DNA of 24,784 nucleotides. Source: a virus. Shown here in pieces: positions 4,856 to 23,958 of this stretch. The DNA lies in the IMG/VR virus record IMGVR_UViG_3300005825_000209, positions 1-24,784 of that record. One strand, given 5' to 3'. The notes beneath the pieces are model-generated. The model was not told the origin of the DNA. It was given only the letters and a program-made list of their open reading frames with translations, and ran no database searches. The position numbers and the translations under genes are program-made. How positions within the stretch are numbered: position 1 is the stretch's first letter; the number at the start of each line of letters is the position of its first letter.

Positions 4856-5285
4856 GGTCAGCAAGCTATTCGTCGGCGGGTTGCCCTACGACATGGATGA
4901 AAAGCGTCTCGCTGAGGTGTTCGTACAATTTGGCACGGTCATTCATTGCAAGATTGTGCGGTGTTTGGAAACGGGCACGTCGCGTGGGTTTGGGTTTGTT
5001 GAGTTCGAATGCAGCAAGGCTGCAACCGCCGCTTTCGAGTTGGATGGCGCGACTCTGGATGGCCGAGTGTGCAACGTCTCGCTTGCGCGTGACCGGCCTG
5101 GCTTTGGTCCGCGAGGTCGCCTTCGTGGTCCGTCGGACGCGGTCGAGGTACGGGCTCGGCCAGACCCAATAGGGTTCGAGTCGTCGGGCTTCCCGGTGCC
5201 CGAGAATCGTGAGTCGAGAGCTTCGCGGCGCGCTCAAAATGCAGCTCCGCGTCGCCGAATCGAACGAAGCAAATTTGCGCAATAG
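4845..5285 (+). CDS. RRM (RNA recognition motif) RNA-binding protein
   Basis: I choose ATG 4845, with GGAG at 4832-4835 upstream, rather than the longer in-frame start at 4815. The 146-residue protein has a complete RRM at residues 6-83. RNP2 is LFVGGLP (8-14) and RNP1 is RGFGFVEF (47-54), with the aromatic residues that stack on RNA all present. The tail (84-146) is rich in Arg, Gly and Pro (RPGFGPRGRLRG), as in bacterial glycine-rich RNA-binding proteins and eukaryotic RRM-RGG proteins. RRM proteins are known in cyanobacteria and various proteobacteria but are unusual in phages. The gene overlaps its left neighbour and precedes the primase. RNA binding is a safe inference from the motif; the target RNA is not. 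Confidence 0.9.
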   Translation: MSLEVSKLFVGGLPYDMDEKRLAEVFVQFGTVIHCKIVRCLETGTSRGFGFVEFECSKAATAAFELDGATLDGRVCNVSLARDRPGFGPRGRLRGPSDAVEVRARPDPIGFESSGFPVPENRESRASRRAQNAAPRRRIERSKFAQ

Positions 5286-5309
5286 ACGCGCTGCAATCGA
5301 TTGCAGCTG
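5285..5309. repeat. Palindromic element, copy 1 (before primase gene)
   Basis: The 16-bp perfect palindrome CTGCAATCGATTGCAG lies at 5291-5306. The whole 25 bp (5285-5309) is identical, in inverse orientation, to the element at 10851-10875. It starts directly at the stop codon of the RRM gene and ends 13 bases before the primase start, so it covers the intergenic gap. There is no T-run, so it is not an intrinsic terminator. It could be an operator, an RNA hairpin or a small mobile palindrome. Confidence 0.9.
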
Positions 5310-5322
5310 AAAAGAGGGTCGA

Positions 5323-6471
5323 ATGACGCCGAATCAGGTCGTTGAGCTACTGGGGATTTTCGGCGCAGAAGATATTGAGATTCGCGGGGCAAAGATCCAT
5401 TCGTCGTGCCCACTTGCAAGATGGACTCACGCCGGCGGGACCGACGGCCATCCTTCGTTTGGCATCTATCGATCGAGTCATGGCAACCTTCGATACAAAT
5501 GCCTCGCCTGCGGGGCGGCGGGCTCGATGCGTGGGCTCTATTGGCAAATGATGACGCACGGCGGAAGCTGGTTCCCGTTGGCGAATCAACTCGTCTACGA
5601 GGAAGCCGAGAGAAGTTCAGAAGCGGCGGCCAAGCAACATCGGCTTGAGTATCGTCCTGGGGGGGCCCTCGTTGGTGAAGCGGGGATTCGCCGACTGGCG
5701 GATTGGAAGCCAGGCCCGATGCCGTCAGGTGTTACGGAGACGCTTTGGGAGGACATGACGCCGAAAGGCGAAGCGGTGCACTATGATTTGCCTGCACCGG
5801 AAACATTCGATTGGTGGCATCGTCAGCCGATTCCGGAGCACGCCCTCAAGCGCGGGGTGACTCCGGAAATGTGGGAGCGATGGGGGATGGGCTACGACCC
5901 GAACCGGCATCGGTGGATTTTCGTTTGCCGCGACAAGAATCGAGAGATTGTGGGGTACACGGGCCGCATTTGCTGGGACGCGGACCATTGCTTTCGGTGC
6001 GGGCGATCCATCGTCGACAAGGAAAAGTCCGAGAAACGGGGAAAGAAAGTGCACATGCATAAGTGCGAGTGTTGCCGGCAAAGCTACGTGAAATACTGGA
6101 ATTTCCCGGGCATGTGGCGTCGCAGTTCGGTTTACGGCATTCATCTTTACGAGGGCGGCTCGGTCGTGATTCTCGAAGGCTCGACGGACTGCTCGCGCCT
6201 CCAACAGTTTGGAGTAAAGAACCCAATGGGGGTTTTCGGCGCGCAAGTGAACCCCGATCAATTGGATTTGATTTTTGAATTAAGCTGCCCGATTGTCGTT
6301 GCCGGCGATGGAGATAAGGCCGGTCGGGAGCTCAACAGCGCGATCGAGGCGCAGTGCAAGCGGGCCGGCCGAAGTTGCGAATTAGTGACCATTCCGGACG
6401 GCACCGATCCAGGCGCGCTCACGGAACAAGAAATTCGGGCACTGTTTCCAGACCATGCTTTTTTAATTTGA
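5323..6471 (+). CDS. DnaG-like DNA primase (zinc-binding and TOPRIM domains)
   Basis: The 382-residue protein combines a CHC2-type zinc-binding N-terminus (C29, H36 or H43, then C60 and C63 in YKCLACGAAG) with a TOPRIM catalytic domain. The TOPRIM domain has E285 in VVILEGSTD and the GDGD acidic pair (D329, D331), followed by PDGTDPGAL (358-366) as in DnaG and T7 gp4. It should make the RNA primers for the DnaB-like helicase encoded upstream. A second cysteine/histidine cluster (C223, C226, H244, H246, C248, C250, C251) sits between the two domains and is not a usual DnaG feature. The ribosome site is AGAGGG at 5312-5317. The palindromic element ends 13 bases upstream. Confidence 0.9.
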   Translation: MTPNQVVELLGIFGAEDIEIRGAKIHSSCPLARWTHAGGTDGHPSFGIYRSSHGNLRYKCLACGAAGSMRGLYWQMMTHGGSWFPLANQLVYEEAERSSEAAAKQHRLEYRPGGALVGEAGIRRLADWKPGPMPSGVTETLWEDMTPKGEAVHYDLPAPETFDWWHRQPIPEHALKRGVTPEMWERWGMGYDPNRHRWIFVCRDKNREIVGYTGRICWDADHCFRCGRSIVDKEKSEKRGKKVHMHKCECCRQSYVKYWNFPGMWRRSSVYGIHLYEGGSVVILEGSTDCSRLQQFGVKNPMGVFGAQVNPDQLDLIFELSCPIVVAGDGDKAGRELNSAIEAQCKRAGRSCELVTIPDGTDPGALTEQEIRALFPDHAFLI

Positions 6472-6483
6472 CGGGATTCGAGA

Positions 6484-6542
6484 ATTGACGAACAGTAGAT
6501 CTTGGAATCTGAGCATTCCAAGACGACGGCCACGAGAGCCGT
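6484..6542 (+). promoter_or_regulatory. Leader of the SSB gene: TTGACGAAC box and two hairpins
   Basis: The 110-base gap before the SSB gene holds ATTGACGAAC (6484-6493). After it comes a perfect 9-bp hairpin (6500-6508 TCTTGGAAT with 6515-6523 ATTCCAAGA, loop CTGAGC). A second hairpin, ACGGC (6526-6530) with GCCGT (6538-6542), follows. Neither has a T-run. TTGACG could act as a -35 box, but I see no good -10 at 16-18 bases. The stacked hairpins just before an SSB start suggest translational control, as T4 gene 32 protein represses its own message; that is an analogy, not evidence. Confidence 0.5.
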
Positions 6543-6581
6543 AACAAAACCACACCACTAGGATAGGATAGGAAGCACATC

Positions 6582-7577
<996 letters not shown>

Positions 7578-7585
7578 TCTGTGCT

Positions 7586-7604
7586 GGGTTAAATCGGGTT
7601 AAAT
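7586..7604. repeat. GGGTTAAAT direct repeat
   Basis: GGGTTAAAT occurs at 7586-7594 and 7596-7604, exactly ten bases apart, with a related AGTTAAA at 7615-7621. The helical-turn spacing would suit a protein-binding site between the SSB stop and the terminator, but chance is possible. Confidence 0.4.
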
Positions 7605-7622
7605 AGACGAGGTCAGTTAAAG

Positions 7623-7648
7623 GGGGTGCAGACGCGCCCCATTTTTTT
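7623..7648 (+). terminator. Intrinsic terminator after the SSB gene
   Basis: GGGGTGC (7623-7629) pairs with GCGCCCC (7634-7640) over seven base pairs (one G-T wobble) around an AGAC loop. Seven T follow at 7642-7648. It closes the loader-to-SSB transcription block. Confidence 0.92.
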
Positions 7649-7663
7649 GGGATACGCGGTGTT

Positions 7664-9190: not shown

Positions 9191-9471
9191 CATAGATGTT
9201 TTGTAGGTACGGATCCGCATGTAGGCTCTGCTAAGTGAGCTTCGCTAGGTGAGTGTCCAGAAACTGTTATCTGGGTGTCTAGGAATTGTTAGCTCCTGTT
9301 ATCTGGGTGTCTAGGAGGTGTTATCTGGGTCTATAGGAACTGCTAGGCGAGTGCGCAGTCGGTTTTCCATTGACTCTGCACTTCGAGCCTTAGAAATTGG
9401 ATTTGAACTCGCGGCGAGTTCGCGCCGGTCCGGAAAAAACTGACAGATTGGGGCCAATATTGAGCTTTCGA
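9191..9471. repeat. Non-coding region with iteron-like direct repeats; candidate origin or operator
   Basis: No convincing gene lies between 9191 and about 9528. It contains three copies of a 20-base direct repeat, TGTTATCTGGGTGTCTAGGA, at 9265-9284, 9297-9316 and 9319-9338; the third copy has a few changes near its 3' end. A second word, GCTARGYGAG, occurs at 9230-9239, 9244-9253 and 9342-9351 and flanks the array. Clustered direct repeats beside replication genes are typical of initiator-binding iterons or a multi-site operator. No AT-rich unwinding stretch is obvious. Origin function is inference. Confidence 0.65.
9405..9421. other. Perfect short hairpin GAACTCG-CGG-CGAGTTC
   Basis: A seven-bp perfect inverted repeat with a three-base loop lies between the direct-repeat array and the promoter. 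There is no T-run. It could be a dyad binding site or a structured element of the same regulatory region. Confidence 0.6.
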
Positions 9472-9476
9472 TATGT

Positions 9477-9505
9477 TTGACAATGACTACATTTGACACT
9501 ATTCT
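9477..9505 (+). promoter_or_regulatory. Sigma-70-like promoter (TTGACA-N17-TATTCT)
   Basis: A perfect -35 box TTGACA (9477-9482) is followed after 17 bases by TATTCT (9500-9505), predicting a start near 9512 and transcription of the helix-turn-helix gene. TTTGACA is repeated 16 bases downstream (9492-9498), inside the spacer, and may serve a bound regulator. Confidence 0.65.
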
Positions 9506-9543
9506 ACCCGGAAGCGGTTGTCATCGGAGTGACTAAGACTGAT

Positions 9544-10080
9544 ATGGATGGGAATCCGAAGATTTTAGAGCCGGAGGATGATATTGATGAGGCTGAGGAG
9601 GCTCGCCGGAATTACCAGGCGGAGTGGTGGCGACTGAATGGCGATGAGTGTCGCCGAAAGCGACGGGAAAAGTATGTCGCGGACCCAGAGTATCGGCGTG
9701 CGTGTCAGGAGCGCGCGGAATCGTATCGGAAGCGCGTCGTAGCTGAGGGGAGGAACCCTCGGGACACGATTGGTCGGCAGATTTGGGTGCAGATTGGCGC
9801 TAAGCGCGTCCCAGCCTACACGGCGAGCTATCTTGCAACTCGAGTCAGGCGCAGCTTGCACGCGGTGAACAACTGGCAAAAGAATGGGCGTTTGCCGATG
9901 ACGCCGATTGTAACCGAAGGTGGGATTCGCCTCTATACCGAGGAGATGGTTGAGGTCGTGCGACAAGCGGTCCTTAGCCAACCGTTTAAGCGCGTGTGTG
10001 CTGACGATGTCGAGTTTACGGCGAAGATCGAAAAAGGATGGGCAAAGTTGCGGATTAAGGACGCGCGGCACGTTGCTTAG
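9544..10080 (+). CDS. MerR-like helix-turn-helix DNA-binding protein
   Basis: The C-terminal half reads YTASYLATRVRRSLHAVNNW (about residues 97-116), then a short wing (GRLP, EGGIRLYTEEMVEVVRQA). This is the pattern of a MerR/excisionase-type winged helix-turn-helix. The N-terminal half has an acidic start and then an Arg/Tyr-rich helix (CRRKRREKYVADPEYRRA) that may add DNA contacts. I use ATG 9544 with GGAG at 9526-9529, a long 14-base gap; GTG 9529 is the alternative. The gene has its own promoter directly upstream and its own strong terminator, so it is a single-gene unit next to the direct-repeat array. It may bind those repeats, as initiator or repressor, but nothing proves it. Confidence 0.7.
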   Translation: MDGNPKILEPEDDIDEAEEARRNYQAEWWRLNGDECRRKRREKYVADPEYRRACQERAESYRKRVVAEGRNPRDTIGRQIWVQIGAKRVPAYTASYLATRVRRSLHAVNNWQKNGRLPMTPIVTEGGIRLYTEEMVEVVRQAVLSQPFKRVCADDVEFTAKIEKGWAKLRIKDARHVA

Positions 10081-10130
10081 ACCTGTTGCCTAAGCGTTAG
10101 GTCGCTCCCAGCCTGATTCCCCGAATGTTG

Positions 10131-10163: not shown

Positions 10164-10223
10164 GTTGGCCTGGAGGTCTCGCCGCATACTGGCAACCCGT
10201 GGCCCAAAGTGAAATCACCTCGG

Positions 10224-10233: not shown

Positions 10234-10263
10234 GGCAAACAATGGGCCAAGATTTGGAGGGCT

Positions 10264-10843: not shown

Positions 10844-10890
10844 CTCCGGCCAGCTGCAATCGATTGCAGCGCGTCGGGGACCCCTCCCCG
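10844..10890. repeat. Palindromic element, copy 2, plus a GC-rich hairpin before the recA-like gene
   Basis: The palindrome CTGCAATCGATTGCAG is at 10854-10869. The left flank matches copy 3 (25 of 26 bases, 10844-10869 versus 23495-23520). The right flank matches copy 1 in inverse orientation (25 of 25 bases, 10851-10875). Directly after it, CGGGGA (10875-10880) and TCCCCG (10885-10890) form a second hairpin around CCCC. There is no T-run. Together they fill the 61-base leader of the recA-like gene. Confidence 0.88.
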
Positions 10891-10903: not shown

Positions 10904-12238
10904 GTGCAGACAGTTAGAGCAAACCGGTTGAGTCGATTGGCGGCAGTAAGCCGCGCAGTAAACGAAAAATTCGGAAAGGGCAGCTTAGTCCTCTCCCCGC
11001 CCTCCACGGCGATCCCTCGCCTCACGACGGGGAGCCTTGTACTCGACGCCGCACTTGGTGGGGGCGTCCCCGTCGGCCGAATCACATTGATCGCGGGCAA
11101 AGAATCGGGCGGTAAAACCTACACGACGATGGCGATTGCAGCTCGGGCGCAAGGCTTGTGCTCAAACTGCCTGCGTGAGGTGGAGATCACGGAAGTCGAG
11201 GAGATTGTCGGCGAGGACGGAGAGGTTTTCTACGCGGCGCAGGCCCATTGCGACTGCTATGTGAAGGGCCTTTTTAAGCCAAAGCCATATCCCGAGGAGC
11301 GCAACGACAAAACGAAGGACGGTATGGCCTACGTTGAGGTGCCGGTGCTCGACGAGCATGGTGAGCCCGAATTCACCCGCGCGGGCAAGCCGAAGGTCAA
11401 TCGCGTCTGTGCGTTCGAAGATCGGTGCAAGGGCTACGAGGAAAACTCGTACGAGGAATTCCGCGTGGGCGTTTTTGATGCGGAGCGGTCCTTTGACCCG
11501 GAGTGGTACGAGAAAATTGGCGTCGATACGCGTCGGCTCGTGATCCAGCAGCCGGAATCTGGCGAGGAAGTGATCGATAGCTACGACGGCCTCTTGCGCT
11601 CCGGTGTGGTCGACTTGTTGATCTGCGACTCGATCGCCGCGATGACGCCACGCAAGGAGATTGAGAAGTCGGCGGAGGATGATCTTGTGGCCGTGCAGGC
11701 GCGCATGATGTCTCGCATGTGTCGAAAGACGACGGCGGCCATGTGCAGTGTCTTCAAAGATTACGGTCGGGAGGTTACGCAGATCTGGGTCAATCAATTG
11801 CGGGTTGACGTCGGTGTGAGCTTCGGGACCAATGAGGTGTTGCCGGCGGGCAAGGCCCAGAAGTTCGCGGCTTCGATTGAGATTCGCATGTGGTCGAAGA
11901 AGAGCGAGGAGATCACGAACGACCATGGGATGGGCAAAGCCGACGCCATGACAATGGCCAACAAGATCTTGATCAGCTTTCGGACCGAGAAAAACAAAAC
12001 AGCTCCGCCCCGGCAGACCGGCTCATTTACACTAAATGTGCTGACGGCCCAGATCGATCAGGTCGAGCAGGTGCGCTCCGTCGCGGAGCGATACGGCCTC
12101 GTTTGTCGAGAGGGCGCGAAGTGGGTTTGCGGTGTTGAATCGTTTCGTACCCGGGCCGAGCTCGACGTCTATTTGATGGAAAACTACGAGTCGAGGTATC
12201 GAGCGTTATTACTCGCTAAAATGCTGGGAACCTCATGA
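10904..12238 (+). CDS. RecA-like recombinase with a large cysteine-rich insert
   Basis: The 444-residue protein keeps the RecA core: Walker A GKESGGKT (65-72), catalytic Glu in DAERSFDPEWYEKIGVD (E194), Walker B VVDLLICDSIA (235-245), a loop-1 segment RMMSRMCRK, and loop 2 from NQLRVDVGVSFGTNEVLPAG (297-316) to KFAASIEIRM. These match the E. coli RecA signatures NQIR and GG-AL-F-AS closely. It should form a filament on single-stranded DNA and exchange strands. Between the Walker A helix and the catalytic Glu lies an extra segment (about 85-185) with C86, C89, C116, C118, C169 and C175, a likely zinc-binding insert. I use GTG 10904; the ribosome site is weak and the hairpin-bearing leader may control it. 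The stop overlaps the next ATG. Confidence 0.93.
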   Translation: MQTVRANRLSRLAAVSRAVNEKFGKGSLVLSPPSTAIPRLTTGSLVLDAALGGGVPVGRITLIAGKESGGKTYTTMAIAARAQGLCSNCLREVEITEVEEIVGEDGEVFYAAQAHCDCYVKGLFKPKPYPEERNDKTKDGMAYVEVPVLDEHGEPEFTRAGKPKVNRVCAFEDRCKGYEENSYEEFRVGVFDAERSFDPEWYEKIGVDTRRLVIQQPESGEEVIDSYDGLLRSGVVDLLICDSIAAMTPRKEIEKSAEDDLVAVQARMMSRMCRKTTAAMCSVFKDYGREVTQIWVNQLRVDVGVSFGTNEVLPAGKAQKFAASIEIRMWSKKSEEITNDHGMGKADAMTMANKILISFRTEKNKTAPPRQTGSFTLNVLTAQIDQVEQVRSVAERYGLVCREGAKWVCGVESFRTRAELDVYLMENYESRYRALLLAKMLGTS

Positions 12239-13343: not shown

Positions 13344-13635
13344 CGGGTGCAGTTTCTATGCCAAGGGGGACGTTCGGCAGTTATCCCCAGGCGTCGTGCA
13401 CGACATGTGGAGATTCCTTTTTGAGTGCAAGACGACTGGCGACAAGTCGATTCGAATCACTTCGGCCTGGCTGACCAAGATCACACGTGAGGCCATGGCG
13501 GAGGGGCTTGAGCCGGCACTTGAGTTTGAGATCCGCGGAGGGGCCGATCCTATTTGCGAAAAACAATGGGTCGCCATCCCTCGTTCAGTATTCACACGGC
13601 TCCAAATGGCGGCATTGGAGTCTAATGCTAAATAG
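13231..13635 (+). CDS. PD-(D/E)XK endonuclease, Holliday-junction resolvase-like
   Basis: I choose GTG 13231, which has AGGAG at 13219-13223 seven bases upstream. The first residues (SRYRPKIFGDSTSPQGMSRKQE) and the following core match a phage nuclease family. The core has E23, the GGRLVPGSG motif, D47 in KGDV, and E65-x-K67 in FECKTT, the metal-binding set of the PD-(D/E)XK fold. Then come an SIRITSAWLTKITREA helix and a final strand. Such small phage enzymes cut branched DNA or act as structure-specific endonucleases. At 134 residues it has the usual length. It overlaps the upstream membrane protein gene by 113 bases. ATG 13282 is a poorer alternative start that would remove the N-terminal motif. 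Confidence 0.82.
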   Translation: MSRYRPKIFGDSTSPQGMSRKQEASAAKVHGGRLVPGSGCSFYAKGDVRQLSPGVVHDMWRFLFECKTTGDKSIRITSAWLTKITREAMAEGLEPALEFEIRGGADPICEKQWVAIPRSVFTRLQMAALESNAK

Positions 13636-13636
13636 A

Positions 13637-13819
13637 GTGCATTTGCACCAGCTCTTGAGCCTGGGGATGACGCTGTGGATAGTGAAAAGGCGATTCCTGG
13701 GCGTTTTTGCAAGGGAAATCCGCAATGTGCACGCGTCCATTTGGCGCGCATGGGCATTGACGAACATTTCACTACACCATAGCCTGCGATATGCAGGTCA
13801 TCTCTTTGGGAGATTCGAT
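13637..13819 (+). promoter_or_regulatory. Intergenic region with ATTGACGAAC and a dyad
   Basis: This 184-base gap holds a short palindrome (GTGCA-TT-TGCAC, 13637-13648). It also holds ATTGACGAAC (13756-13765), with TAGCCT (13780-13785) 17 bases after TTGACG as a weak -10. The dyad CCTGC-GATAT-GCAGG (13783-13797) overlaps that -10. Together they look like a repressible promoter for the next gene, though the -10 matches the consensus poorly. Confidence 0.45.
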
Positions 13820-14323
13820 ATGCCTATAAATACGAGTGAGTTTGAGACGCGCGCATTGATTGCGTTGTTCCGAAAAAGTGAGACGGTACGAAGCGCGAAT
13901 GCTTTTTCGCGCGTGTTCAAGGTGGGTCAGCCCTTCCGGGTCGGGGATAAAGTTGTGCTTTGTGCGACGTTTGGTGGGCATCCCATCGTGTTCGCGGGCG
14001 CAGTGATTCGGGCCGTGCTCGAGTCGACCTTTGAGCAGCGCATCGCAAAGACAGCTCAGGCCACCCAATGGGCTTTGGCTGAGGGCTATGAGTCGACCGC
14101 CAAATGGGCGGAGGGGATGAAAAAGCGCTACCCCGGGATCGAGCCCAAATCTCGTGTTCTGCGTGTGCTACTGAACGAGATTCGGCTCTCGCCGGAGATG
14201 ACCGAGGGTGTGGGCGGAGGCGCCGAGTTCGACCCTTATACGGTGCCGGCCGGGAAGGGTGCGGAGCCTAAAACGGTGATGACGGTGCAGAATCTCGACG
14301 CGTTTGGGGAGCTTGGCGGCTAA
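13820..14323 (+). CDS. Hypothetical protein (167 aa)
   Basis: ATG 13820 has GGGAG at 13808-13812 at good distance. The in-frame open stretch upstream is not used because it lies in the regulatory gap and lacks a ribosome site. Residues 30-70 (VFKVGQPFRVGDKVVLCATF, then FAGAVIRAV) read like a small beta-barrel, perhaps PUA/ASCH-like, followed by a helical region (ESTFEQRIAKTAQATQWALA) and a Gly-rich tail. The family is not recognised. It may be the first gene of the unit running through the Cas4-like and RuvC-like genes. Confidence 0.6.
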   Translation: MPINTSEFETRALIALFRKSETVRSANAFSRVFKVGQPFRVGDKVVLCATFGGHPIVFAGAVIRAVLESTFEQRIAKTAQATQWALAEGYESTAKWAEGMKKRYPGIEPKSRVLRVLLNEIRLSPEMTEGVGGGAEFDPYTVPAGKGAEPKTVMTVQNLDAFGELGG

Positions 14324-14352
14324 GGCCGTTCGAAAAGGAGAATGGGGGAAAT

Positions 14353-15405
14353 ATGTTGAGCCGAGCGATGATGGCGTTTTCGACCGTGGCCGCGCCTTCG
14401 CGGCGCCTCCAGAAGGCATTGTTGCGTGGGCTGCCCGAGAAGCGGGTTACAAGGCAAAAAACGTTGACCGCTAACGCGATCAAATTTCGGATGAGTGGCC
14501 TGCCGCGTCTCTGCCCGCGCATGTATGGGCTCATGGCGCTGGAAAATGCGGATATCGTGGAAGAACTGGGTGTCGACAGCGTTTACACGCTCGGCACGGG
14601 GACCGCGATTCATCACCAATTTCAGTCGAGCTACCTTGCCAAGCTGGGCGACGTGTTCCAGGGGTGGTGGCGCTGCACGCATTGCCTCCATACCGTCAAG
14701 GGCGACCGAATGCCCGCGGGCTCGATGCTTTCGCACCGGTGGACGCCTAAACCAAAGGTCGAGTGCCCGAATTGCGGGAAGCCCGTTGCGACCAAGGACA
14801 CGGCCGAGGCAAGGGGGTTGGTCGATTGGACGGACTTTGAAGCGGTTGAGCTGGAGTTCGTGAATCTCGAGTTTTCGATCACCGGCCATTGCGATGGGAT
14901 CTTGGATTGGAATTTCGACCCCGAAGAGCCGAGCGACTTGATTGAGGGCCTGGAGCTCAAGACGATCAATCCACGAGGCTTCGCCTACGTTGACCCGCTC
15001 GAAGGGGGTACGCCCAAGGTCGACCACATCGCCCAGTGCCAGGGGTACTTATGGGGCCTCGAGGGGACGGGTATCGAGCAGATTCGGATCATGTATGTGT
15101 CCAAGGATTTCGAGCGTCCGATGACGCAGACGTTCGCTGAACACATCGTGCGCTACGATGCGGGGTCCGTTGGGAGGATCCAAGCGGGGCTACGGCGCTC
15201 TAGGGAGCAGCTCCGCGAAATGGACGAATGGAAACAGTCGGTGGCTGATCATCCGACCCCTGCTCCGCTTTGCGACCGCCTTCACCTTTGCACCAAGAAG
15301 AGTGACCCGCGGACCAAGTATTGTCCGATGAGGGACCAGTGCTTCCCCAAGAGGCCTGCGAAGGAAAAGCCGCCTGTAAAGCGTGCGACGAAGAAGGCTG
15401 GCTAG
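14353..15405 (+). CDS. Cas4/RecB-type PD-(D/E)XK exonuclease with iron-sulfur cysteines and zinc ribbon insert
   Basis: The 350-residue protein has the RecB-nuclease order: H87-H88, D181 in GHCDGIL, E201-L-K203, and Q228/Q230 with Y232. It also has four cysteines placed as in Cas4/AddB iron-sulfur nucleases: C54 near the start of the fold and C307, C313, C324, C330 at the end (one more than needed). Between H88 and D181 lies a zinc-ribbon-like insert (C108-x2-C111 and C138-x2-C141). It probably trims DNA ends to give 3' tails for the RecA-like protein. Related phage proteins are annotated as Cas4-like, but no cas1 or cas2 is present. The basic Lys-rich tail (335-350) may bind DNA. GGAG and GGGGG lie upstream of ATG 14353. 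Confidence 0.85.
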   Translation: MLSRAMMAFSTVAAPSRRLQKALLRGLPEKRVTRQKTLTANAIKFRMSGLPRLCPRMYGLMALENADIVEELGVDSVYTLGTGTAIHHQFQSSYLAKLGDVFQGWWRCTHCLHTVKGDRMPAGSMLSHRWTPKPKVECPNCGKPVATKDTAEARGLVDWTDFEAVELEFVNLEFSITGHCDGILDWNFDPEEPSDLIEGLELKTINPRGFAYVDPLEGGTPKVDHIAQCQGYLWGLEGTGIEQIRIMYVSKDFERPMTQTFAEHIVRYDAGSVGRIQAGLRRSREQLREMDEWKQSVADHPTPAPLCDRLHLCTKKSDPRTKYCPMRDQCFPKRPAKEKPPVKRATKKAG

Positions 15406-15468
15406 GGAACGGAAATCGCATTGAGCGTCCCGAGCCCGACGAGAGCGGCTCGAAGGTAGAGGGTGATA

Positions 15469-16107
15469 ATGGCAATTGAAGTGAGTGGAAACCCTGAGGA
15501 TCCGATCTATCGGCGGGTGATCGGTCTCGATCTTTCGCTACGCGCAACGGGCTTATGTGCCCTCGACAAGAACGGCACGATTCATTTTGCGAGGAGCGAG
15601 GGGATATCGCTCGAGCAGGAGGCGACGTATCGAGAGAAGCTCGATCGGATGCTGTTTATCGCCAAGATGGTGGTGGAGGGGGTCCGACACAATTCGTTTT
15701 CCGTGATTGAGCCCGGGGCTCGGTGCAAAAAGCCGTGGGAATTCGTTCCTAAGGTAGCGATCGAGGGCTACGCCTACTCCAAGGGCGGGACGAAGAAGGG
15801 CAAAGGAAAATCCGGGAGCACAGGTGCGGGGGCCGTTTTCGACCTGGCGGAGCTTGGCGGGGTGATCAAGTCCCAACTATTTCTCACCTTCGGGATCGAG
15901 CCTTACATTGTTTCGGCTGGGACGGCCCGCAAAGCAGTGCTGGGCAAAGGCCGAGCGAGTAAGAGCGATATTGTCGAGTTCGCCAACAAGAACGGCTTGA
16001 AAACGACGAACCACAATATCGCGGATGCCTGGGTGATGGCCCAATGGCTGCGTGGAACTGCATTCGAAGAAGGACTGAATGATGACAAAGCTCAAAACGT
16101 TGGATGA
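15469..16107 (+). CDS. RuvC-like Holliday-junction resolvase (RNase H fold)
   Basis: ATG 15469 follows GAGGG (15459-15463); GTG 15463 is part of that site. The 212-residue protein has the acidic triad of the RuvC fold: D21 in IGLDLSLRATG, E99 in VAIEGYAY and D186 in HNIADAWVMAQW. A disordered Lys/Gly stretch (about 105-122) follows the second motif. It should cut four-way junctions made during recombination-dependent replication, before packaging. RuvC-like enzymes occur in several phages, often with poxvirus A22-type features. Its end overlaps the next gene by 29 bases. A second resolvase-like enzyme of another fold is encoded at 13231. Confidence 0.88.
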   Translation: MAIEVSGNPEDPIYRRVIGLDLSLRATGLCALDKNGTIHFARSEGISLEQEATYREKLDRMLFIAKMVVEGVRHNSFSVIEPGARCKKPWEFVPKVAIEGYAYSKGGTKKGKGKSGSTGAGAVFDLAELGGVIKSQLFLTFGIEPYIVSAGTARKAVLGKGRASKSDIVEFANKNGLKTTNHNIADAWVMAQWLRGTAFEEGLNDDKAQNVG

Positions 16108-16900
16108 TCTGCCGGACGGTAAAGAAGAGACAAAAGCCGAAAAGGCGCTTCGCGAACAGCTCAAAATGGAGGTTCGAGATATCGAGCGTAGCCACTGGAA
16201 GCTCGGGGAGAGCCTGCATTCGGTTCGACAAGAGGCGCTGTACCGGCTGTGGGGGTACGCCACGTTTCAGGAATACGTCATTCGAGACCTGGAAATGTGC
16301 GATCGAACGGCGCACTACCTGGCAAAGCTCGCAGAATTCTTGAAGAAGCTAAAGCCAGAGCACCAAGCCTGGGTTAAAGAGCTTGGCTGGACGAAGGCCA
16401 AGGAGCTCACCGACTACGTCAACAACGGAAACGCGGCGGTCTGGCGGGACAGGCTCAAAGGCAAAAGCGTGAAGGAGATTCAGGCGATTGTCCGCGAAAA
16501 TCGAGCGGGCGCGCTCAAGGAGGCGGCCGAGATCGACGAGGCGAAGGATGACGTTGATGTCGAGAAGGCGGTTCAGGTTCGGTTTCCGCTTTATCCGGAG
16601 CAAGAACGGACCGTGACGCAGGCCATTGAGCACGCCAAGGAGATCGCGCAGTCGGACAAGAAGGGGCACTGCTTGGAAATGATCTGCCTGGATTACCTCG
16701 CATCGCATTCCGGTGTGACCGATACGCAGGCGTATTTGCGTGTCGTTGAGAACTACACCGGGGTCCGACTTATTGGTGTGTGCCTCGATGAGGCATCCGA
16801 GCACTACGGCGACGTGGTGTTCGGTGGCGAGCTTTGCGACAAATTGCGAAGTTTGACCAGTGAAGCTCAAGAAGACGAAGTCGGCGAAGAGAGTGCATAG
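16079..16900 (+). CDS. Helical HTH-like protein, unknown function (273 aa)
   Basis: The gene starts inside the end of the RuvC-like gene (29-base overlap); AGGA at 16071-16074 serves ATG 16079, and ATG 16082 is an alternative. Residues 35-95 (RSHWKLGESLHSVRQEALYR, GYATFQEYVIRDL, CDRTAHYLAKLAEFL) resemble the helix-turn-helix of ParB-like and DUF3102-like proteins, where a host-type sequence reads LYR-GY-SF-EY followed by an HTH. Residues 169-210 (FPLYPEQERTVTQAIEHAKE, then HCLEMICLDYLA) form a conserved-looking helical hairpin seen in phage proteins of unknown role. The C-terminus is acidic. The DNA-binding suggestion is inference. Confidence 0.65.
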   Translation: MMTKLKTLDDLPDGKEETKAEKALREQLKMEVRDIERSHWKLGESLHSVRQEALYRLWGYATFQEYVIRDLEMCDRTAHYLAKLAEFLKKLKPEHQAWVKELGWTKAKELTDYVNNGNAAVWRDRLKGKSVKEIQAIVRENRAGALKEAAEIDEAKDDVDVEKAVQVRFPLYPEQERTVTQAIEHAKEIAQSDKKGHCLEMICLDYLASHSGVTDTQAYLRVVENYTGVRLIGVCLDEASEHYGDVVFGGELCDKLRSLTSEAQEDEVGEESA

Positions 16901-17349: not shown

Positions 17350-18117
17350 GTGTCTAGGACGTCTGAGCAGATTAGTGGAGCAGCGCGATCAAGACGGAGG
17401 GGTGAGCCACCAAAGGCAAAAGACGCCCATTGGAGGATTCGCGGCTTTCCAAAAGCCATCATTGACGAGATCGACCACCGTCTCCTTGCGGGCGACGGTT
17501 ACAAGTCGATCGCGTATTGGTTGCAAAACGATAAGCGGCTAGCGACCGATGTCGTCGAGCAAACACTGGTGCAAAACCTCAAGCGATACAAAGAGTCGCT
17601 TCGCAAGGTGTCGCCGAAGAAGTCGGTGCCGGTGACGGTCGAAGCCATCGAGGCGGAGGGCGGTCCGGTGATGATTGCCGAGGTGACGTCGTTTCTCGAT
17701 ACCGTTGAGGCGATCGATGAGATGGAAGTGATGGCGGCGGCGATTCGCTACCAAAGCGCGCGGATTGATATGCATAAGGCTCTGGAGCAAATGATCAAAC
17801 GCCCGACGCGTTCGTGCTCCGAAGATCTCGAATTGCTTTCGCGCATGTGCGTGCGCAGCCACGATATTCGGATGGACCGGGGCAAGTTCAATATCGACTC
17901 GACGTCGATTCGGCCTGAGCTTCGGCAGCGTGTGACGGAGTCCTATGGCGAAGAAATCGCGGAGGCGATGGAAACGCCGGAGTCGAGCGCCAAAGTCTTG
18001 TCACTTTTCCACCAACTCAAACGGCAGGCCGCGGCGATGAATCAACCAAGCCAAAAAAGCCCGCATGTACCCGAAGATTTTGTCGAAAATAATGACGCCG
18101 ATAATGTAGGAGGGTGA
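17350..18117 (+). CDS. Candidate terminase small subunit
   Basis: This 255-residue protein lies directly upstream of the large terminase gene and overlaps it by GTGA, the usual place for the small subunit. After a basic start (RSRRRGEPPKAKD), residues 30-80 (WRIRGFPKAIIDEIDHRLLA, then YKSIAYWLQNDKRLATDVVE) look like a helix-turn-helix, consistent with DNA recognition. Residues 105-200 are helical and could form the oligomerisation core. The C-terminus is polar. The start GTG 17350 has only a weak ribosome site (TAAGACG). The function rests on position and predicted folds, not on a recognised family. It could also be another packaging accessory. Confidence 0.6.
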   Translation: MSRTSEQISGAARSRRRGEPPKAKDAHWRIRGFPKAIIDEIDHRLLAGDGYKSIAYWLQNDKRLATDVVEQTLVQNLKRYKESLRKVSPKKSVPVTVEAIEAEGGPVMIAEVTSFLDTVEAIDEMEVMAAAIRYQSARIDMHKALEQMIKRPTRSCSEDLELLSRMCVRSHDIRMDRGKFNIDSTSIRPELRQRVTESYGEEIAEAMETPESSAKVLSLFHQLKRQAAAMNQPSQKSPHVPEDFVENNDADNVGG

Positions 18118-21100
18118 TTCGCAAGGAGCAGGGGCGTCACCATTCGGTGCGCACCGAAAAAGAGGACGCGCAGCTACTCGTCCAAACGTTGGCATCGCTA
18201 AGCGATGCTGAGCGAAATTACCTCGAACTTTTGTTGCGTCAGGAGGGCTTGCCCGATGGGTCCAGGCCTTCGTTGGAGAATATTGCTGCGGTGGATTACG
18301 GGACAGACTCGGTGTATCGCTGGGAGCCCGTTTCGATCGAAGAGTTCTTGTTCGACGAATACTATATGGGTGCAAGTACGACCACGCTTTACCCCAAGTG
18401 GAAAGACGACATCGAAGAGATGTTTACCTTGTCCGGTATTCGAGAGGTGATATTGGCTGGATCTATCGGGGTAGGGAAATGTGTATCGTACTTCACGGAG
18501 GTTATGGACGGTGTGACGGGTGAACGTCATGAAGTCGGTAAGCTGGCCGAAAATGAGTCGACTTTGAACGTCGTGAGCTACAAGGACGGATTTCGCTCAC
18601 TACGTGCGCGTGCCATGAAGTCAGGGGAGAAGCCGCTCTGGCGTGTTCGCTTCGCGAGCGGTCGGTGGGTTGAGCTTTCGGCCGATCATCCCATGCGGAC
18701 GGCCTACGGATGGACCCGGCCGCTTGAGATGGCGATAGGCGAACTCGTGGCATCTCCGCGAAGGTTGCCCGAGCCGACGACTCCTTTGGTTTTACCTTCG
18801 GCCGAAATTAAGTTTCTCGCCTACATGATGGCTGACGGCGCCTGCTCGTCGGGCAATTGGTTTTTCACGAGCATGAATGACGATATCCTTTGTGAGTTCG
18901 AATTATGCGCGCGTGAGCTTGGTGGCCGGGATGCCTCATTGCCAGCAATTCGGGACCGAAAGTCGAAAACGCGAGCGCGAGAGGTCTATCCCTACGCGAC
19001 GACCTGGCTTCGCGAAAAATACGGCTTGACGCAGAAGAGCAAGGACAAGCGGATCCCCGCCAAGCTCATGGGCCTTCGTAGCGACCTGCTGGCTTTGTTT
19101 TTGAACCGGATTTTCACATGCGATGGCTGCCTCGTAGTTCCTAAAAAAACTGGGAGTGCAGGGATTGAACTCACGTTGGCGAGCGAGCCATTCATTCGAG
19201 ATGTCCAGACGGCACTACTTCGATTCGGCGTGCAATCGCAATTCCGACATCGAGTCGTTGCCAAAAAATATCACGCTTGGCAGCTCCGCATCAGCGGACG
19301 GTCAAACCTTTTGCAGTTTTTCGAAACGATTGGGCTGCTCTTCGGCCAGGAAACACGGAGCCGCGAGATTCGAGACGTCGCTCTCGAAAAGACTGGGAAT
19401 CCGAACCTCGACATCACGCCTTGCGATATGGAGGTGATTCGAAAGCTTCGTTCTGAGGTTGGTGGCGTTTGCTGGCCACATCGACCGGAGGGCCAGCTAT
19501 TGAGCAATGAAACTTTCGTGAAAATGGCCCGCGAGCGTCCGTTGCCGGCGTGGTGTGGCTGGTGGGGGGATATGTTTTGGGATCGGGTGGTTGAAATTGA
19601 GCGGAGGGAGGACCCCCGTCCCGTTTACGATCTCGAAGTTCCCGATTCAGGATGCTTCGTCGGGAATGGGATGCTTATTCACAATACAACCGTTGGTTCA
19701 CTGGCTATTTCTCGCATCCTCTACGAACTCTCATGTCTCGCGCATCCGCAGCTGACGTTTGGTCTTTCACCGGGTTCCGAGATGATGGTGAGCTGCGTGA
19801 GCAAGTCGCTGTATTTGGCGCGTACGGTTCTGAAGAGCTCGATCGAAGAAAAATTGAAGCTGAGTCCCTATTTTCAAGAGAACTTTGCACCGCGAAAGGG
19901 CTTCGGTGGCGAGCACACGACCTTCCCCAATTCGATCAATCTGGCGATCGGGAGCTTTCAGTCAGATCGAGTCTTGGGCCAAAACGTGTTTTCCGGCATC
20001 ATGGACGAGGCCAACTTCGCAGGGACGAACAAGCAGCTTATTAAGTCCACGGGCGATGGCCGGAAGCACGCGGGTATGTTCGACCGCGCTGAGAAGGTAT
20101 TTACGGGCTTGGTGCGCCGAATCAAATCTCGATTCCAGCGAGCGGGCGGGGGCTTCCCTGGCTTTATGATCTTGTTGTCTTCTGCGAATACCGTCGGTGG
20201 GTTTATCGATCGCCGGATACGTGAAAGCATCAACGATCCCTCGGTCTTTCTCCGCGAGTACGCACAATGGGATATCCGACCCAAACAGCACTATTGCGGC
20301 CGAAAGTTCTTCGTGGTGATTGGCTCGTCCGCGATGCGTTCGCGGGTTTATCCGGAAGGCGCTCGGGCGGAGATCAACGAGACGTGGGTTGAAGAACAGG
20401 GAGGGGCGGTTATCGAAGTGCCTTCCGAATATTGGGAAGATTTCGACCGCGATCTTGAAGGGTCGATCCGCGATATTGCGGGGATCAACACGTCGGCGAT
20501 CAGCCCCTACTTCTCACGAACGGAGCGAATCGAGATGTGCCATTCGACGCGCCTCTTTCATCCGTTTTCGGTGATGGAGTACCAGTACGGGCAGCCCGGA
20601 AAGTTCTTGTGGGATCGACTGGTCGAGCGAAAAACTCGCAAACTCGCGGGAGGCTTTACCGAAGAGTATTACCGGCCAAGGCTCAATCCGAACCACGCGC
20701 GATGGGTTCACATCGATCTTGCGCTCTCTTGCGACAGCGTGGGGATTGCGGTGGGGCACGTCGAAAAGATGGTGGAAGTCGTTCGGCGTAACGCGGAGGG
20801 CGATGAGTTCTCCGACGTTGCGCCCTATATCGTGATTGAGTTTATGTTGAGAATTCTTCCGCCTAACGGAGAGCAGATCATTTTGGCGGATGTGCGGCGC
20901 TTGGTCTACGAGCTTCAATCACGAGGGTTCCCGTTCGCGGGCGCGAGCATGGACATGTTTCAAAGCGCCGATAGCTTGCAGCAATTCCGTCATCGGGGGA
21001 TCAAGTCCTGTGTGATCTCCGTGGACCGAACGACGGAGCCCTATGACAACCTTCGCTCGGCGATGTACGAAGGGCGGCTGGAGCTTTACCCTTATGGGCC

Positions 21101-21410
21101 TTTCGAAAGTGAGCTCATGGCCCTCGAGTACGACCCGCAGAAAGGCAAAATCGATCATCCCGTGGCCGGGTCGAAGGACGTTGCGGATGCAGCCGCGGGT
21201 GTCGTTCAGGGTCTCACCGAACATTGCCGCCGGCTTCCCGTTGCTGCGCCAGGGCCAGAGATGTCACGTCGCAGCGAGGATGATCTTAGCTGGGCCAATC
21301 CGGCCGGGCTGATCCCCGTGGGTGACGATTTCGACTTAGAGCGAATTCGGAGCGAGTATGGGCGAGACGATGACTTTGGGGATGACAACGTGCTCTTCCC
21401 ATTGACCTAG
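18114..21410 (+). CDS. Terminase large subunit interrupted by an intein
   Basis: The 1098-residue precursor should splice to a 696-residue terminase, the ATPase-nuclease motor that pumps DNA into the head. The Walker A loop is GSIGVGK (116-122), cut off from its Thr (525) by the intein; after splicing it reads GSIGVGKTT. Walker B is IMDEA with D631-E632. The C-terminal RNase H-like nuclease has D868 (WVHIDLALS), D947 (ASMDMF) and D1022 or D1025 (GSKDVADAAAG). The N-terminal 110 residues are helical and acidic. GTG 18114 abuts AGGAGG (18108-18113) very closely; GTG 18147 is an alternative start. The portal gene follows after 10 bases. The ATPase cannot work unless the intein splices out. Confidence 0.93.
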   Translation: MIRKEQGRHHSVRTEKEDAQLLVQTLASLSDAERNYLELLLRQEGLPDGSRPSLENIAAVDYGTDSVYRWEPVSIEEFLFDEYYMGASTTTLYPKWKDDIEEMFTLSGIREVILAGSIGVGKCVSYFTEVMDGVTGERHEVGKLAENESTLNVVSYKDGFRSLRARAMKSGEKPLWRVRFASGRWVELSADHPMRTAYGWTRPLEMAIGELVASPRRLPEPTTPLVLPSAEIKFLAYMMADGACSSGNWFFTSMNDDILCEFELCARELGGRDASLPAIRDRKSKTRAREVYPYATTWLREKYGLTQKSKDKRIPAKLMGLRSDLLALFLNRIFTCDGCLVVPKKTGSAGIELTLASEPFIRDVQTALLRFGVQSQFRHRVVAKKYHAWQLRISGRSNLLQFFETIGLLFGQETRSREIRDVALEKTGNPNLDITPCDMEVIRKLRSEVGGVCWPHRPEGQLLSNETFVKMARERPLPAWCGWWGDMFWDRVVEIERREDPRPVYDLEVPDSGCFVGNGMLIHNTTVGSLAISRILYELSCLAHPQLTFGLSPGSEMMVSCVSKSLYLARTVLKSSIEEKLKLSPYFQENFAPRKGFGGEHTTFPNSINLAIGSFQSDRVLGQNVFSGIMDEANFAGTNKQLIKSTGDGRKHAGMFDRAEKVFTGLVRRIKSRFQRAGGGFPGFMILLSSANTVGGFIDRRIRESINDPSVFLREYAQWDIRPKQHYCGRKFFVVIGSSAMRSRVYPEGARAEINETWVEEQGGAVIEVPSEYWEDFDRDLEGSIRDIAGINTSAISPYFSRTERIEMCHSTRLFHPFSVMEYQYGQPGKFLWDRLVERKTRKLAGGFTEEYYRPRLNPNHARWVHIDLALSCDSVGIAVGHVEKMVEVVRRNAEGDEFSDVAPYIVIEFMLRILPPNGEQIILADVRRLVYELQSRGFPFAGASMDMFQSADSLQQFRHRGIKSCVISVDRTTEPYDNLRSAMYEGRLELYPYGPFESELMALEYDPQKGKIDHPVAGSKDVADAAAGVVQGLTEHCRRLPVAAPGPEMSRRSEDDLSWANPAGLIPVGDDFDLERIRSEYGRDDDFGDDNVLFPLT
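18480..19685 (+). mobile_element. In-frame intein with LAGLIDADG homing endonuclease
   Basis: The intein spans 402 residues (precursor 123-524). It begins with Cys123 (CVSYFTEVMDG, block A). It has S189-A-D-H192-P (block B), a DOD homing endonuclease with FLAYMMADG (D241) and FLNRIFTCDG (D337), block F VYDLEVPDSGCFVGNG, and ends in the His-Asn pair (H523, N524) before Thr525 as the +1 nucleophile. All residues for class 1 splicing are present, with the usual block B Thr replaced by Ser189. It sits between Lys and Thr of the terminase P-loop, a preferred intein site because it is conserved. Both LAGLIDADG acids are intact, so homing may be active. No frame break is seen. Confidence 0.95.
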
Positions 21411-21420
21411 GCGAGAGACC

Positions 21421-23187
21421 ATGGGACTGGCAGGCAATATTTCCAGAGCGTTTGCGAAGTACTTCGACCGCGAGCGCAAAGAGAGTGGCCAGGATCTCAA
21501 GCGTGGCGAGGACTACACGAGAGCTCCGCTGACGGGTCCAGACTCGCAAGGCTACCATCGCCTCAACGATGAGCTCACGCTTGACGGTGACCTCATGAGC
21601 CGTTACGCGGACTATGAGAACATCGCCGATTATGGAGAGGCCGCGGCGGCGCTCGACATTTACGCTGACGATGCGACGACCAAGGACCTCACGGAGAACG
21701 CGGCGATCTGGGTCAAGAGTAAGGACGTCGTGATCAAAGCGATTCTCGAAGACCTCTTGACGAAGCGGCTCAAGGTTGACGAGTCAATCTGGTCCGTTAC
21801 TCGCGTGCTTTGCATGTACGGAAACGTCTTTGGCGAGGTATTGGCGAACAACGAGGGCGTCCTGGGCATCAATTTTATGCCCACGCCGAGCGTGCGCCGA
21901 GTGGAGTCCAGGACGGGCGAGCTCATTGGCTTTGTTCAGGACATCACGGGCCAATTCAACATTACGAATCGCGAAGTTGGGGAGGCGGTCCATCGGATGC
22001 GCCACGGCGAGAGCCAGGCAGCGGTGCCTCCGGCTAGCGGATACTCGCGCGCGTACGGGCACATGCAGGCCAGCGCGGGCCTAAACCCGAGGGAAAATGA
22101 TGTCACGATCTTCCAGCCTTGGGAGGTGATTCATTGGCGCCTTCAAGCTCGCCATGTTTCCGCGCCCTACGGACAAAGCGTGCTTGAGCCGGCGCGCTAC
22201 ATATTTCCGCGCTTGGCGATGTTTGAGGACTCGGCGTTGATCTATCGACTCACGCGCTCGCCCGCGCGTTTTGCCTATTACGTCGATGTTGGCGAGCTTC
22301 CGCAAGGCCAGTCGATGGCCTACGTCGAAGCGGTCAAGCGCAAGTACAAGAAACAGCAAAGTTGGAATCCGAGTCGCGGGATCTTAGGCCTTCGCAACAA
22401 TCCCATGGGGATGAACGAGGACCTTTGGCTTCCAATGCGGGGCGGGCAGGAGTCGACACGGGTGGACGTGCTTGCGGGTCCCGACTATCAGGTGGTCGAC
22501 GATCTCGAGTACTTCCGAGACAAGTTCTTTTCGGCGATTCGCGTGCCGAGGGCCTACCTTGGCTTCGACATTGAGGCCAGCCGCAACGCGTTAAGTAACG
22601 TCGACGTCCGCTTTGCGAAGGCGACGATGCGAGTGCAGCAGCAGTTGATCGCCGGTTACTCCGAAGCGTGCCGGATGCATCTTGCGATTCTCGGTGTCGA
22701 TCCGGACTTGGCGGATTGGGAGCTCGAAATGAAGCTTCCGAGCCACATCTTCGAGCTCGCGCAGATTGAGCTCATGGGAGCTAAGCTCGATGTGGCTGAG
22801 AAGCTAAAGGATTGGTTGCCAAAGACATGGATCCTGGAACGCGTTCTCGGCTTCTCGGCGGAGGAATCCGACGTACTCCAGCGGTCCAAGGTTGCCGAGA
22901 CAGAGCAGAGCGAATTGCGAGCGGCGTCTGTGCAGCAGACAATCGGCGAGCGTTATCCGTTAGCGGTCGGCATGGATAATTCCGACGGCGCCCCGCCTCA
23001 ACCCGATCAAGCCCAAGAGTCGCTCCGTGAAGCGGTCATGACGGGCCTGTCTCGCCTGGAGAAACGGCTAGACGAGCAGGGTGGCACGATGGCCCTGAAA
23101 TTAGATTCGTTGTCCAAACCTATTAAGCATGTGAATAGAGCACTGAAACTCCGCGAGCACAGCGACCGGACAAAGAGGGCAGTCTAA
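21421..23187 (+). CDS. Portal protein, T4 gp20-like
   Basis: The 588-residue protein carries the recognisable run of T4 gp20-type portals: ADYENIADYGEAAAALDIYADDAT, then YGQSVLEPARYIFPRLAMFE, LIYRLTRSPARFAYYVDVGE, and EDLWLPMRGG with a VDVLAG segment. The portal is the 12-fold ring at one head vertex, where the terminase docks and the tail attaches. The order terminase then portal is standard. The C-terminal 100 residues (from about 495) are polar and partly coiled-coil, with QESLREAVMTGLSRLEKRLD. ATG 21421 lacks a strong ribosome site (GCGAGAGACC before it). The stop directly abuts the next ATG. The match suggests a contractile-tailed phage. Confidence 0.92.
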   Translation: MGLAGNISRAFAKYFDRERKESGQDLKRGEDYTRAPLTGPDSQGYHRLNDELTLDGDLMSRYADYENIADYGEAAAALDIYADDATTKDLTENAAIWVKSKDVVIKAILEDLLTKRLKVDESIWSVTRVLCMYGNVFGEVLANNEGVLGINFMPTPSVRRVESRTGELIGFVQDITGQFNITNREVGEAVHRMRHGESQAAVPPASGYSRAYGHMQASAGLNPRENDVTIFQPWEVIHWRLQARHVSAPYGQSVLEPARYIFPRLAMFEDSALIYRLTRSPARFAYYVDVGELPQGQSMAYVEAVKRKYKKQQSWNPSRGILGLRNNPMGMNEDLWLPMRGGQESTRVDVLAGPDYQVVDDLEYFRDKFFSAIRVPRAYLGFDIEASRNALSNVDVRFAKATMRVQQQLIAGYSEACRMHLAILGVDPDLADWELEMKLPSHIFELAQIELMGAKLDVAEKLKDWLPKTWILERVLGFSAEESDVLQRSKVAETEQSELRAASVQQTIGERYPLAVGMDNSDGAPPQPDQAQESLREAVMTGLSRLEKRLDEQGGTMALKLDSLSKPIKHVNRALKLREHSDRTKRAV

Positions 23188-23958
23188 ATGTATTTGCAAC
23201 GCGAAGAAATGGATCGTTTGTCCGAAGGCAGTGTGGAGGATTTCATGGCGCATGTTTTGGAGAAGGCGAACGCCGAGAGCCAAACGCCCTTGTCGATTTT
23301 TGCCACGCATCGTGACCACGCCTTTGCGGTCGCGGGTGACAAAGTTGTTCGACTTGAGTGGGAGGGGAAGGGGGACGAGATGGTCGTCAAGATTTTGGAT
23401 GCTGGCGTGACCTTGACCCAAGAGTCGGAGGATTCGCCTCGGAACGTGGCTGACCAGCTCAAAGCGAGCGTCGCAGAGCTTCTGGACGACAATTCTCCGC
23501 CCAGCTGCAATCGATTGCAGTCGCTCGTGATGATTTTGGGCGAGTCCGCGGGCTACTGGATGGACGATCTGACACGGCGCGTTCGAGAGCAGGAGGAGGC
23601 AATCGCACGACTGGGGCGGGACGCGAGCGCGTCGATTTCCGAGGGTCGTCGCGAGGCCCTTCTTTCGGGGATCCCCAAAACTCCCTATGCTCGATTGAGC
23701 GCAGTCCAGCTTCCGGAGTTCGAAGGTGAGCTTCGGTCTTCGCTTACGCACTTGGCCGAGATGGCGGATGTGCTCTCACGCTCAAAACCACCGGCCGCCA
23801 GACACCTCGATGGATTGGTTTCGACCATTGACGCCGCTCTTGCGCTAGCCAAGCCCGATGAATTGGCACTACTTGCAGAGTGCCACGATCTTTTTGCGAG
23901 TGCGCTTGGCCGGGTGATACTCATGGACGAGAACGTAGAAGCAGGAACGAAGCAATGA
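23188..23958 (+). CDS. Hypothetical protein after portal (256 aa)
   Basis: ATG 23188 abuts the portal stop, so translation is probably coupled. Residues 1-90 are mixed alpha/beta (TPLSIFATHRDHAFAVAGDK, then VVRLEWEGKGDEMVVKILD). From 95 the protein is mostly helical with coiled-coil character (DDLTRRVREQEEAIARLGRD). I do not recognise it. In T4-like gene order, small head genes and the prohead protease and scaffold follow the portal, so a head-assembly role is plausible. No Ser-His protease motif is evident. The third palindromic element lies in frame at about residues 104-111 (PSCNRLQ), inside the coding sequence. Confidence 0.6.
   Translation: MYLQREEMDRLSEGSVEDFMAHVLEKANAESQTPLSIFATHRDHAFAVAGDKVVRLEWEGKGDEMVVKILDAGVTLTQESEDSPRNVADQLKASVAELLDDNSPPSCNRLQSLVMILGESAGYWMDDLTRRVREQEEAIARLGRDASASISEGRREALLSGIPKTPYARLSAVQLPEFEGELRSSLTHLAEMADVLSRSKPPAARHLDGLVSTIDAALALAKPDELALLAECHDLFASALGRVILMDENVEAGTKQ
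23495..23520. repeat. Palindromic element, copy 3, inside a coding region
   Basis: The perfect palindrome CTGCAATCGATTGCAG (23505-23520) with its left flank matches copy 2 at 25 of 26 bases (23495-23520). It is read in frame as Ser-Pro-Pro-Ser-Cys-Asn-Arg-Leu-Gln without a stop codon. Presence inside a gene argues that the element is not solely an intergenic terminator or operator. Confidence 0.9.

Follow-up and report, generated by a model that had tools for sequence, protein, structure and literature searches.

Why does one short palindrome recur at three places in a virus fragment of 24.8 kb? The fragment, called the window below, is the entire 24,784-bp IMG/VR record IMGVR_UViG_3300005825_000209. 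The original prediction was that a 19-mer, CTGCAATCGATTGCAG, containing a perfect 16-bp palindrome, is present in three copies that cannot be due to chance. Our recount agreed with this. The 19-mer occurs exactly three times, at 5291-5309 (minus strand), 10851-10869 (plus strand) and 23502-23520 (plus strand), and dinucleotide shuffles gave expectations of 0.01 for the 19-mer and 0.19 for the 16-mer, each with up to three mismatches. A fourth or degenerate copy was absent from the window when the 16-mer was searched with up to three mismatches. The flanks were also as described: copies 1 and 2 share 25 bp in inverse orientation (5285-5309 and 10851-10875), and the left flanks of copies 2 and 3 are identical at 25 of 26 positions (10844-10869 and 23495-23520). 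Copies 1 and 2 precede the primase and recA-like genes, by 16 bp from the ATG at 5323 and by 34 bp from the GTG at 10904, respectively; the latter is the start as called in the present analysis. Copy 3 is present in exact form in the identical fragments L005/L231 and L006 as well. The features concerned are listed here, with the coordinates of the 16-bp palindromes, which were confirmed.

5291 to 5306: palindromic site copy 1 (in an 18-bp palindrome, 5290-5307), between the stop codon of the RRM-protein gene and the primase start
5323 to 6471, plus strand: Toprim primase, the gene after copy 1
10854 to 10869: palindromic site copy 2 (in an 18-bp palindrome, 10853-10870), 5' of the recA-like start
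10904 to 12238, plus strand: RecA-like recombinase, the gene after copy 2
23505 to 23520: palindromic site copy 3, within the open reading frame 23188-23958, after the portal gene
23188 to 23958, plus strand: protein of unknown function whose gene holds copy 3

The three copies belong to a much larger set of sites. The generalised site is TGCAA-N4-TTGCA, in which the centre is variable and the spacer is exactly four bases, and it is dispersed through a broad phage clade that comprises IMG/VR contigs and cultured phages of 80-101 kb. Each genome carries about 9-52 copies, whereas about 0.1 is expected. The original prediction held that a lack of further copies and of conservation in relatives would weaken a functional role; in the relatives the opposite was found, and the sites are conserved. 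A handful of contigs accounted for many of the 54 stretches that an IMG/VR scan for the 16-mer returned (records and stretches carry G and L numbers below). Over whole records, contigs of 105, 38, 106 and 95 kb, among others, had 25, 9, 11 and 10 copies of the consensus TGCAATCGATTGCA, respectively. Most of these contigs are distant kin of the window, with TerL, RecA, helicase and primase about 35-45% identical in amino acids over the best segments. The 105-kb contig G001 has none of these genes in common; it comes from the same sample as the related G003 and may therefore be another part of the G003 genome.

Cultured relatives were found with proteins of the clade, and they have a replication and packaging module in common. 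They are the Stenotrophomonas phages DLP5 and DLP3, the Rhodobacter phages RcTiptonus and RcZahn, the Rhizobium phages TM16 and Y1_11, the Agrobacterium phage JP1 and the Vibrio phages LV6, D4 and KarBoss, and site-bearing phages were found for all five hosts. DLP5 has 31 sites, JP1 33 and RcTiptonus 27, against 0 for the reversed-pattern control; RcZahn has 9. No description of the sites was found in the open-access literature searched, and the network is apparently previously undescribed.

Two observations on the contigs themselves can be added. L376-L378 (UViG_2708742415_000004) carries 12 dispersed copies of another long palindrome, CTCCCTGGATCG-N4-CGATCCAGGGAG, together with three copies of TGCAA-N4-TTGCA. 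L194 and L223 (UViG_3300045974_000189 and _000167) have about 150 nearly identical end bases in inverse orientation, and these contigs may be pieces of a single genome.

The fixed spacer is what sets the site apart. The form with a spacer of four was found 31 times in G007 against 0.10 expected and 28 times in G001 against 0.06, and other spacers were at background. When any 5-mer inverted repeat was allowed in an unbiased search, the same motif family came out on top in eight of the eight cultured relatives first examined, and an unbiased palindrome search gave the same result for the IMG/VR relatives large enough for testing. The consensus and its variants are spread over whole genomes, and individual phages have their own variants: TGCAATcaATTGCA in DLP5, TTGCAAACGTTTGCAA in JP1, GTGCAAcatATTGCAC in the Rhizobium pair, GCAATTAATTGC in LV6 and CTGCAATCGATTGCAG in the window group. 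The sites are palindromic in most members; those of G012 and the Vibrio phages are partly asymmetric, and in the Vibrio phages one perfect half-site is often paired with a degenerate one. Sites within two mismatches of TGCAATTAATTGCA numbered 25 in D4, 43 in KarBoss and 28 in LV6, against 0-2 in simulated sequence. For the G012 variant TACAAT, a promoter-like interpretation was set aside, since site-centred profiles showed no conserved -35-like flank.

The half-sites are under strong purifying selection. The aligned DNA of DLP5 and DLP3 is 83% identical, and 30 of the 31 DLP5 sites align; at these, all 300 half-site positions are identical, compared with fractions of 0.95 in the centre, 0.836 in the flanks and 0.854 in isolated TGCAA/TTGCA words. 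In the more diverged pair TM16 and Y1_11 (74% identical), 87 of 90 half-site positions are conserved, compared with 72% in the centre and 68% in the flanks. A drifting centre between fixed halves is the signature of a dimeric protein that reads two half-sites. The sites are almost certainly selected protein-binding sites.

The original prediction had left four possibilities, namely an operator, a packaging or partition site, a structured RNA and a small mobile palindrome. The operator- or partition-type protein-binding site is supported by genome-wide conservation in the clade, by the exact 4-bp spacer, by perfect half-sites around a less constrained centre and by the presence of a ParB-like helix-turn-helix (HTH) protein in the same phages, which is considered below. 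The structured RNA and the mobile palindrome are not supported, since the sites stay fixed while flanks diverge, many of them are within coding sequence and changes in one half-site are uncompensated. The palindrome could act as an RNA hairpin, that is, as the apex of a terminator or as an mRNA processing or stability element. In support of this, several copies in G001 and G003 are at the tip of a longer perfect inverted repeat, in some cases with a T-run behind it as in intrinsic terminators, and window copy 2, taken with its flanks, folds more readily than shuffled sequences (z -3.25). However, copies 1 and 3 of the window show no such advantage over shuffles, deviations such as TGCAATCGATTGTA and TGACATTAATTGCA are not compensated in the other half-site, and extended arms are a minority limited to a few contigs. 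Moreover, no Rfam match was obtained, and neither RNA families nor tRNA were found. We regard the hairpin as very unlikely.

A mobile palindrome of the REP/MITE type (repetitive extragenic palindromes or miniature inverted-repeat transposable elements), or a host-wide iterated palindrome carried into the phages, would explain why distant phages carry many identical copies at places that do not correspond. HIP1, the dispersed exact palindrome of cyanobacteria, is such a feature of host genomes. In DLP3 and DLP5, however, the sites keep their position while flanks diverge; neither conserved flanks nor target duplications were seen, and the spacing is even. The 14 cellular genomes examined, none a known host of the window phage, contain about 1-2 TGCAA-N4-TTGCA per Mb, about equal to the reversed control, whereas the richer phages contain about 300 per Mb. 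A host repeat of the HIP type was also rejected on the genome scan, which gave scattered matches only among those listed. A mobile or host-derived origin is highly improbable.

Where do the sites lie? Every genome analysed has an excess of sites between genes, yet many sites are inside genes. The share of intergenic sites, compared with the noncoding share of the genome, was 86% against 18% in G001, 90% against 15% in G003, 75% against 16% in KarBoss, 61% against 17% in RcTiptonus and 32% against 12% in DLP5; the gene calls were made with a simple in-house caller and are approximate. About 70% of the sites of DLP5 and G007 are within genes. Many sites of G001 and G003 are 13-45 bp upstream of start codons. 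A bias of position within the intergenic gap toward the next start was clear in G001 only, and therefore we did not adopt a model in which all sites are 5' operators. In G001 and G003, some copies cap longer inverted repeats whose arms vary, and several of these resemble intrinsic terminators. Several copies in L184-L191 (UViG_3300008255_000111 and _000246) cap intrinsic-terminator-like hairpins with differing arms.

In most genomes, the sites are also spaced more regularly than expected at random. The median gap is about 2-4 kb in most of them, and the coefficient of variation of the gaps was 0.46-0.62, compared with 0.97-1.25 under a null model that preserves the intergenic and genic counts (for example, 0.48 against 0.97 in DLP5, 0.52 against 1.25 in G001 and 0.53 against 0.98 in G007). 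In 4000 simulations, no set was as even as the real one in DLP5, JP1, G001, G007, RcTiptonus or G026. LV6, RcZahn and KarBoss, which have few exact sites, did not show even spacing against a uniform null.

Which protein reads the sites? Our candidate, HTH273, is encoded in the window next to a resolvase gene.

15463 to 16107, plus strand: RuvC-like Holliday-junction resolvase, overlapping the start of the HTH273 gene
16079 to 16900, plus strand: HTH273 (phrog_17202), 273 amino acids, function unknown; candidate binder by structure model and co-occurrence

A resolvase or RNase H-like gene is 5' of the HTH273 gene in G006, LV6 and D4 as well. HTH273 was found in 20 of 24 records and is missing from three site-free outgroup phages and the partial contig G001. 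When 41 IMG/VR loci were picked solely by HTH273 homology, they contained 146 sites against 1.1 expected. D4 had seemed to be an exception, with HTH273 and no exact site, but it has 25 quasi-palindromes against about 1 expected. We modelled HTH273 with AlphaFold from a 41-row alignment. The model is confident at residues 20-150 (block pLDDT, the predicted local distance difference test score, >90), and its C-terminal part is of low confidence. A DNA-binding domain of the ParB/Noc/KorB type is predicted by the model at residues ~17-150. When residues 17-153 were used for structure matching, the best folds were ParB-parS (6t1f, Z 9.6), Spo0J-parS (4umk, 9.5), Noc-NBS (6y93, 9.0) and KorB-operator (1r71, 8.0). 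Two further observations link the protein with the sites. In G019, the palindrome is GTCCAATTGATTGGAC in place of TGCAA..TTGCA, and the G019 protein has Ser/His at R76/Y80 (window numbering) of the predicted recognition helix, where at least 90% of homologues have Arg/Tyr. In 6 of 15 genomes, the HTH273 gene has a site at its 5' end, whereas among other conserved genes the figure is 16 of 195 (Fisher p 0.002); autoregulation would lead one to expect this. HTH273 is likely to be the protein that binds the sites, with CTGCAATCGATTGCAG and TGCAATCAATTGCA as putative targets; the DLP5 homologue is encoded at 47.8-48.5 kb of the DLP5 record.

Several results weigh against this assignment. G001 has 28 sites and lacks HTH273, presumably because the contig is partial. 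L332/G021 has no sites, L339/G020 has three in addition to a different dispersed palindrome, the window carries just three in 24.8 kb, and the Vibrio phages deviate with their quasi-palindromes. The Z scores of 8-9.6 are only suggestive for an all-helical domain, and Raf1 likewise scored 8.2; the E-values of the Foldseek matches were 0.15-0.8. HTH273 has no match to Pfam HTH_ParB, sequence-level homology to the ParB HTH was not significant, and hhalign against bacterial ParB HTH was not significant either (probability 4%). The specificity shift is one clear case, G019, and other changes in the recognition helix (G012, RcTiptonus and JP1) do not map simply onto changes of the site. Furthermore, HTH273 belongs to the co-inherited replication module, and co-occurrence alone cannot single it out. 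Among the universally shared members of that module, we infer that HTH273 is the only one found that resembles a sequence-specific DNA-binding protein.

Other regulators were considered. In many members a ParB_N-domain protein adjoins the terminase, and it was rejected as the binder because it is present in site-free Arthrobacter phages and was not found in the site-rich LV6, G019, G026 and G037; the sites co-occur with HTH273 rather than with this protein. As a separate observation, G007 has three tandem open reading frames, each with a ParB_N domain (L211 ~13500-15300). The palindrome TGCAATCGATTGCA and the JP1 variant TTGCAAACGTTTGCAA look like LacI-type operators, in consensus only. However, the LacI HTH profile PF00356 had no match in 20 clade records and did match in 10 control genomes, and a host LacI protein would explain neither conservation across hosts nor even spacing. 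A LacI-family regulator is hardly credible.

More serious, though still unlikely, is a genome-wide shut-off in which the sites act as silencing sites, like stoperators or operators, of another phage regulator, either an immunity repressor or the ParB_N protein near TerL. The intergenic enrichment in G001, G003 and KarBoss, the short distance of many G001 and G003 sites from starts and the ParB_N gene in many members agree with this, and DLP5 and DLP3 are lysogenic, DLP5 as a phagemid (PMC5834331, PMC7326821). In contrast, the distribution of ParB_N speaks against it, most DLP5 and G007 sites are intragenic, and RcZahn, which is reported to be virulent (PMC8601537), retains its sites. Mycobacteriophages of the L5 type have more than 20 short repressor-binding stoperators over the genome, often intergenic; these are asymmetric, are oriented with transcription and are bound by a monomeric immunity repressor (PMC9283540). 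The dispersed layout over a phage genome is alike, but the sites of this clade are palindromic, often intragenic and kept in RcZahn.

On balance, we consider it probable that the clade-wide network consists of parS- or KorB-operator-like sites of HTH273, a stand-alone ParB-type HTH protein without a cytidine triphosphatase (CTPase) domain. KorB of plasmid RK2, an HTH protein of the ParB family, has 12 binding sites with a 16-bp operator on one plasmid and controls genes over long range (PMC11790492). The HTH273 model resembles the KorB DNA-binding domain, and in both cases palindromes (the KorB operators, OB) are dispersed over one replicon. They differ in that KorB has a CTPase sliding-clamp domain, whereas none was found in HTH273 (no match to the ParB_N CTPase domain), and in that the phage sites differ in sequence, are more numerous and are evenly spaced over the genome. 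ParB-parS and Noc-NBS (Noc-binding site) combine palindromes of about 14-16 bp with a DNA-binding fold that the HTH273 model resembles. However, the phage site sequence is not the canonical parS, the sites are even across genomes rather than clustered near the origin, and the phages lack a detected ParA: 20 records, fragments among them, gave nothing above cut-off with profile PF13614, and other motor types were not searched. The phage network would work most like KorB and its operators, given the proposed binder and its proposed kinship with ParB. Because a 2025 survey of phages for the ParB-CTPase fold took the CTPase domain as its starting point, HTH273 would have escaped it (PMC12704722).

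In the mechanism that we propose, an HTH273 dimer would read one half-site with each recognition helix. Without a CTP-dependent clamp, the protein would not spread from a few sites, and therefore many regularly placed sites may be used. The bound sites would organise the phage DNA, silence or regulate transcription (the gene of HTH273 itself included), or both; we see nearly equal odds for genome organisation and for transcription control as the main role. Packaging or segregation of the DNA may also be the outcome. The persistence of DLP5 as a phagemid and the lysogeny of DLP3 fit partition or silencing, but ParA was not found. Because the reportedly virulent RcZahn keeps nine sites, a role independent of lysogeny is favoured.

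Other features of the window were noted. The large terminase gene (18114-21410) has a LAGLIDADG intein. A KhpA/KhpB-like KH-domain protein (333-650) and an RRM-domain protein (4815-5285) are encoded, and two RNA-binding proteins are unusual for a phage. Three imperfect direct repeats (TGTTATCTGGGTGTCTAGGA...) are at 9250-9346, after the helicase gene and before the regulator-like gene at 9493, and three 72-bp tandem repeats lie in frame at 1975-2190 in a protein of unknown function.

Taken further, the proposal would be that a phage-encoded, CTPase-free ParB-type protein organises a whole genome through tens of regular parS-like sites; we put this forward tentatively. With similar reserve, such a viral chromosome-architecture system may be shared by phages of several proteobacterial hosts, whether temperate or reportedly virulent, with site density replacing clamp spreading. 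In a large group of phages of ~80-120 kb, near-invariant protein-binding sites form an evenly spaced grid that has escaped genome annotation, and the conserved family phrog_17202, of unknown function, gains a testable function. The cultured members DLP5, DLP3, RcTiptonus, RcZahn, JP1 and TM16 make the idea directly testable. If it is true, DNA recognition of the ParB/KorB type would be tied to phage genome organisation or silencing without a CTP clamp, and the network would serve as a model of the way in which phage DNA is arranged within the cell.

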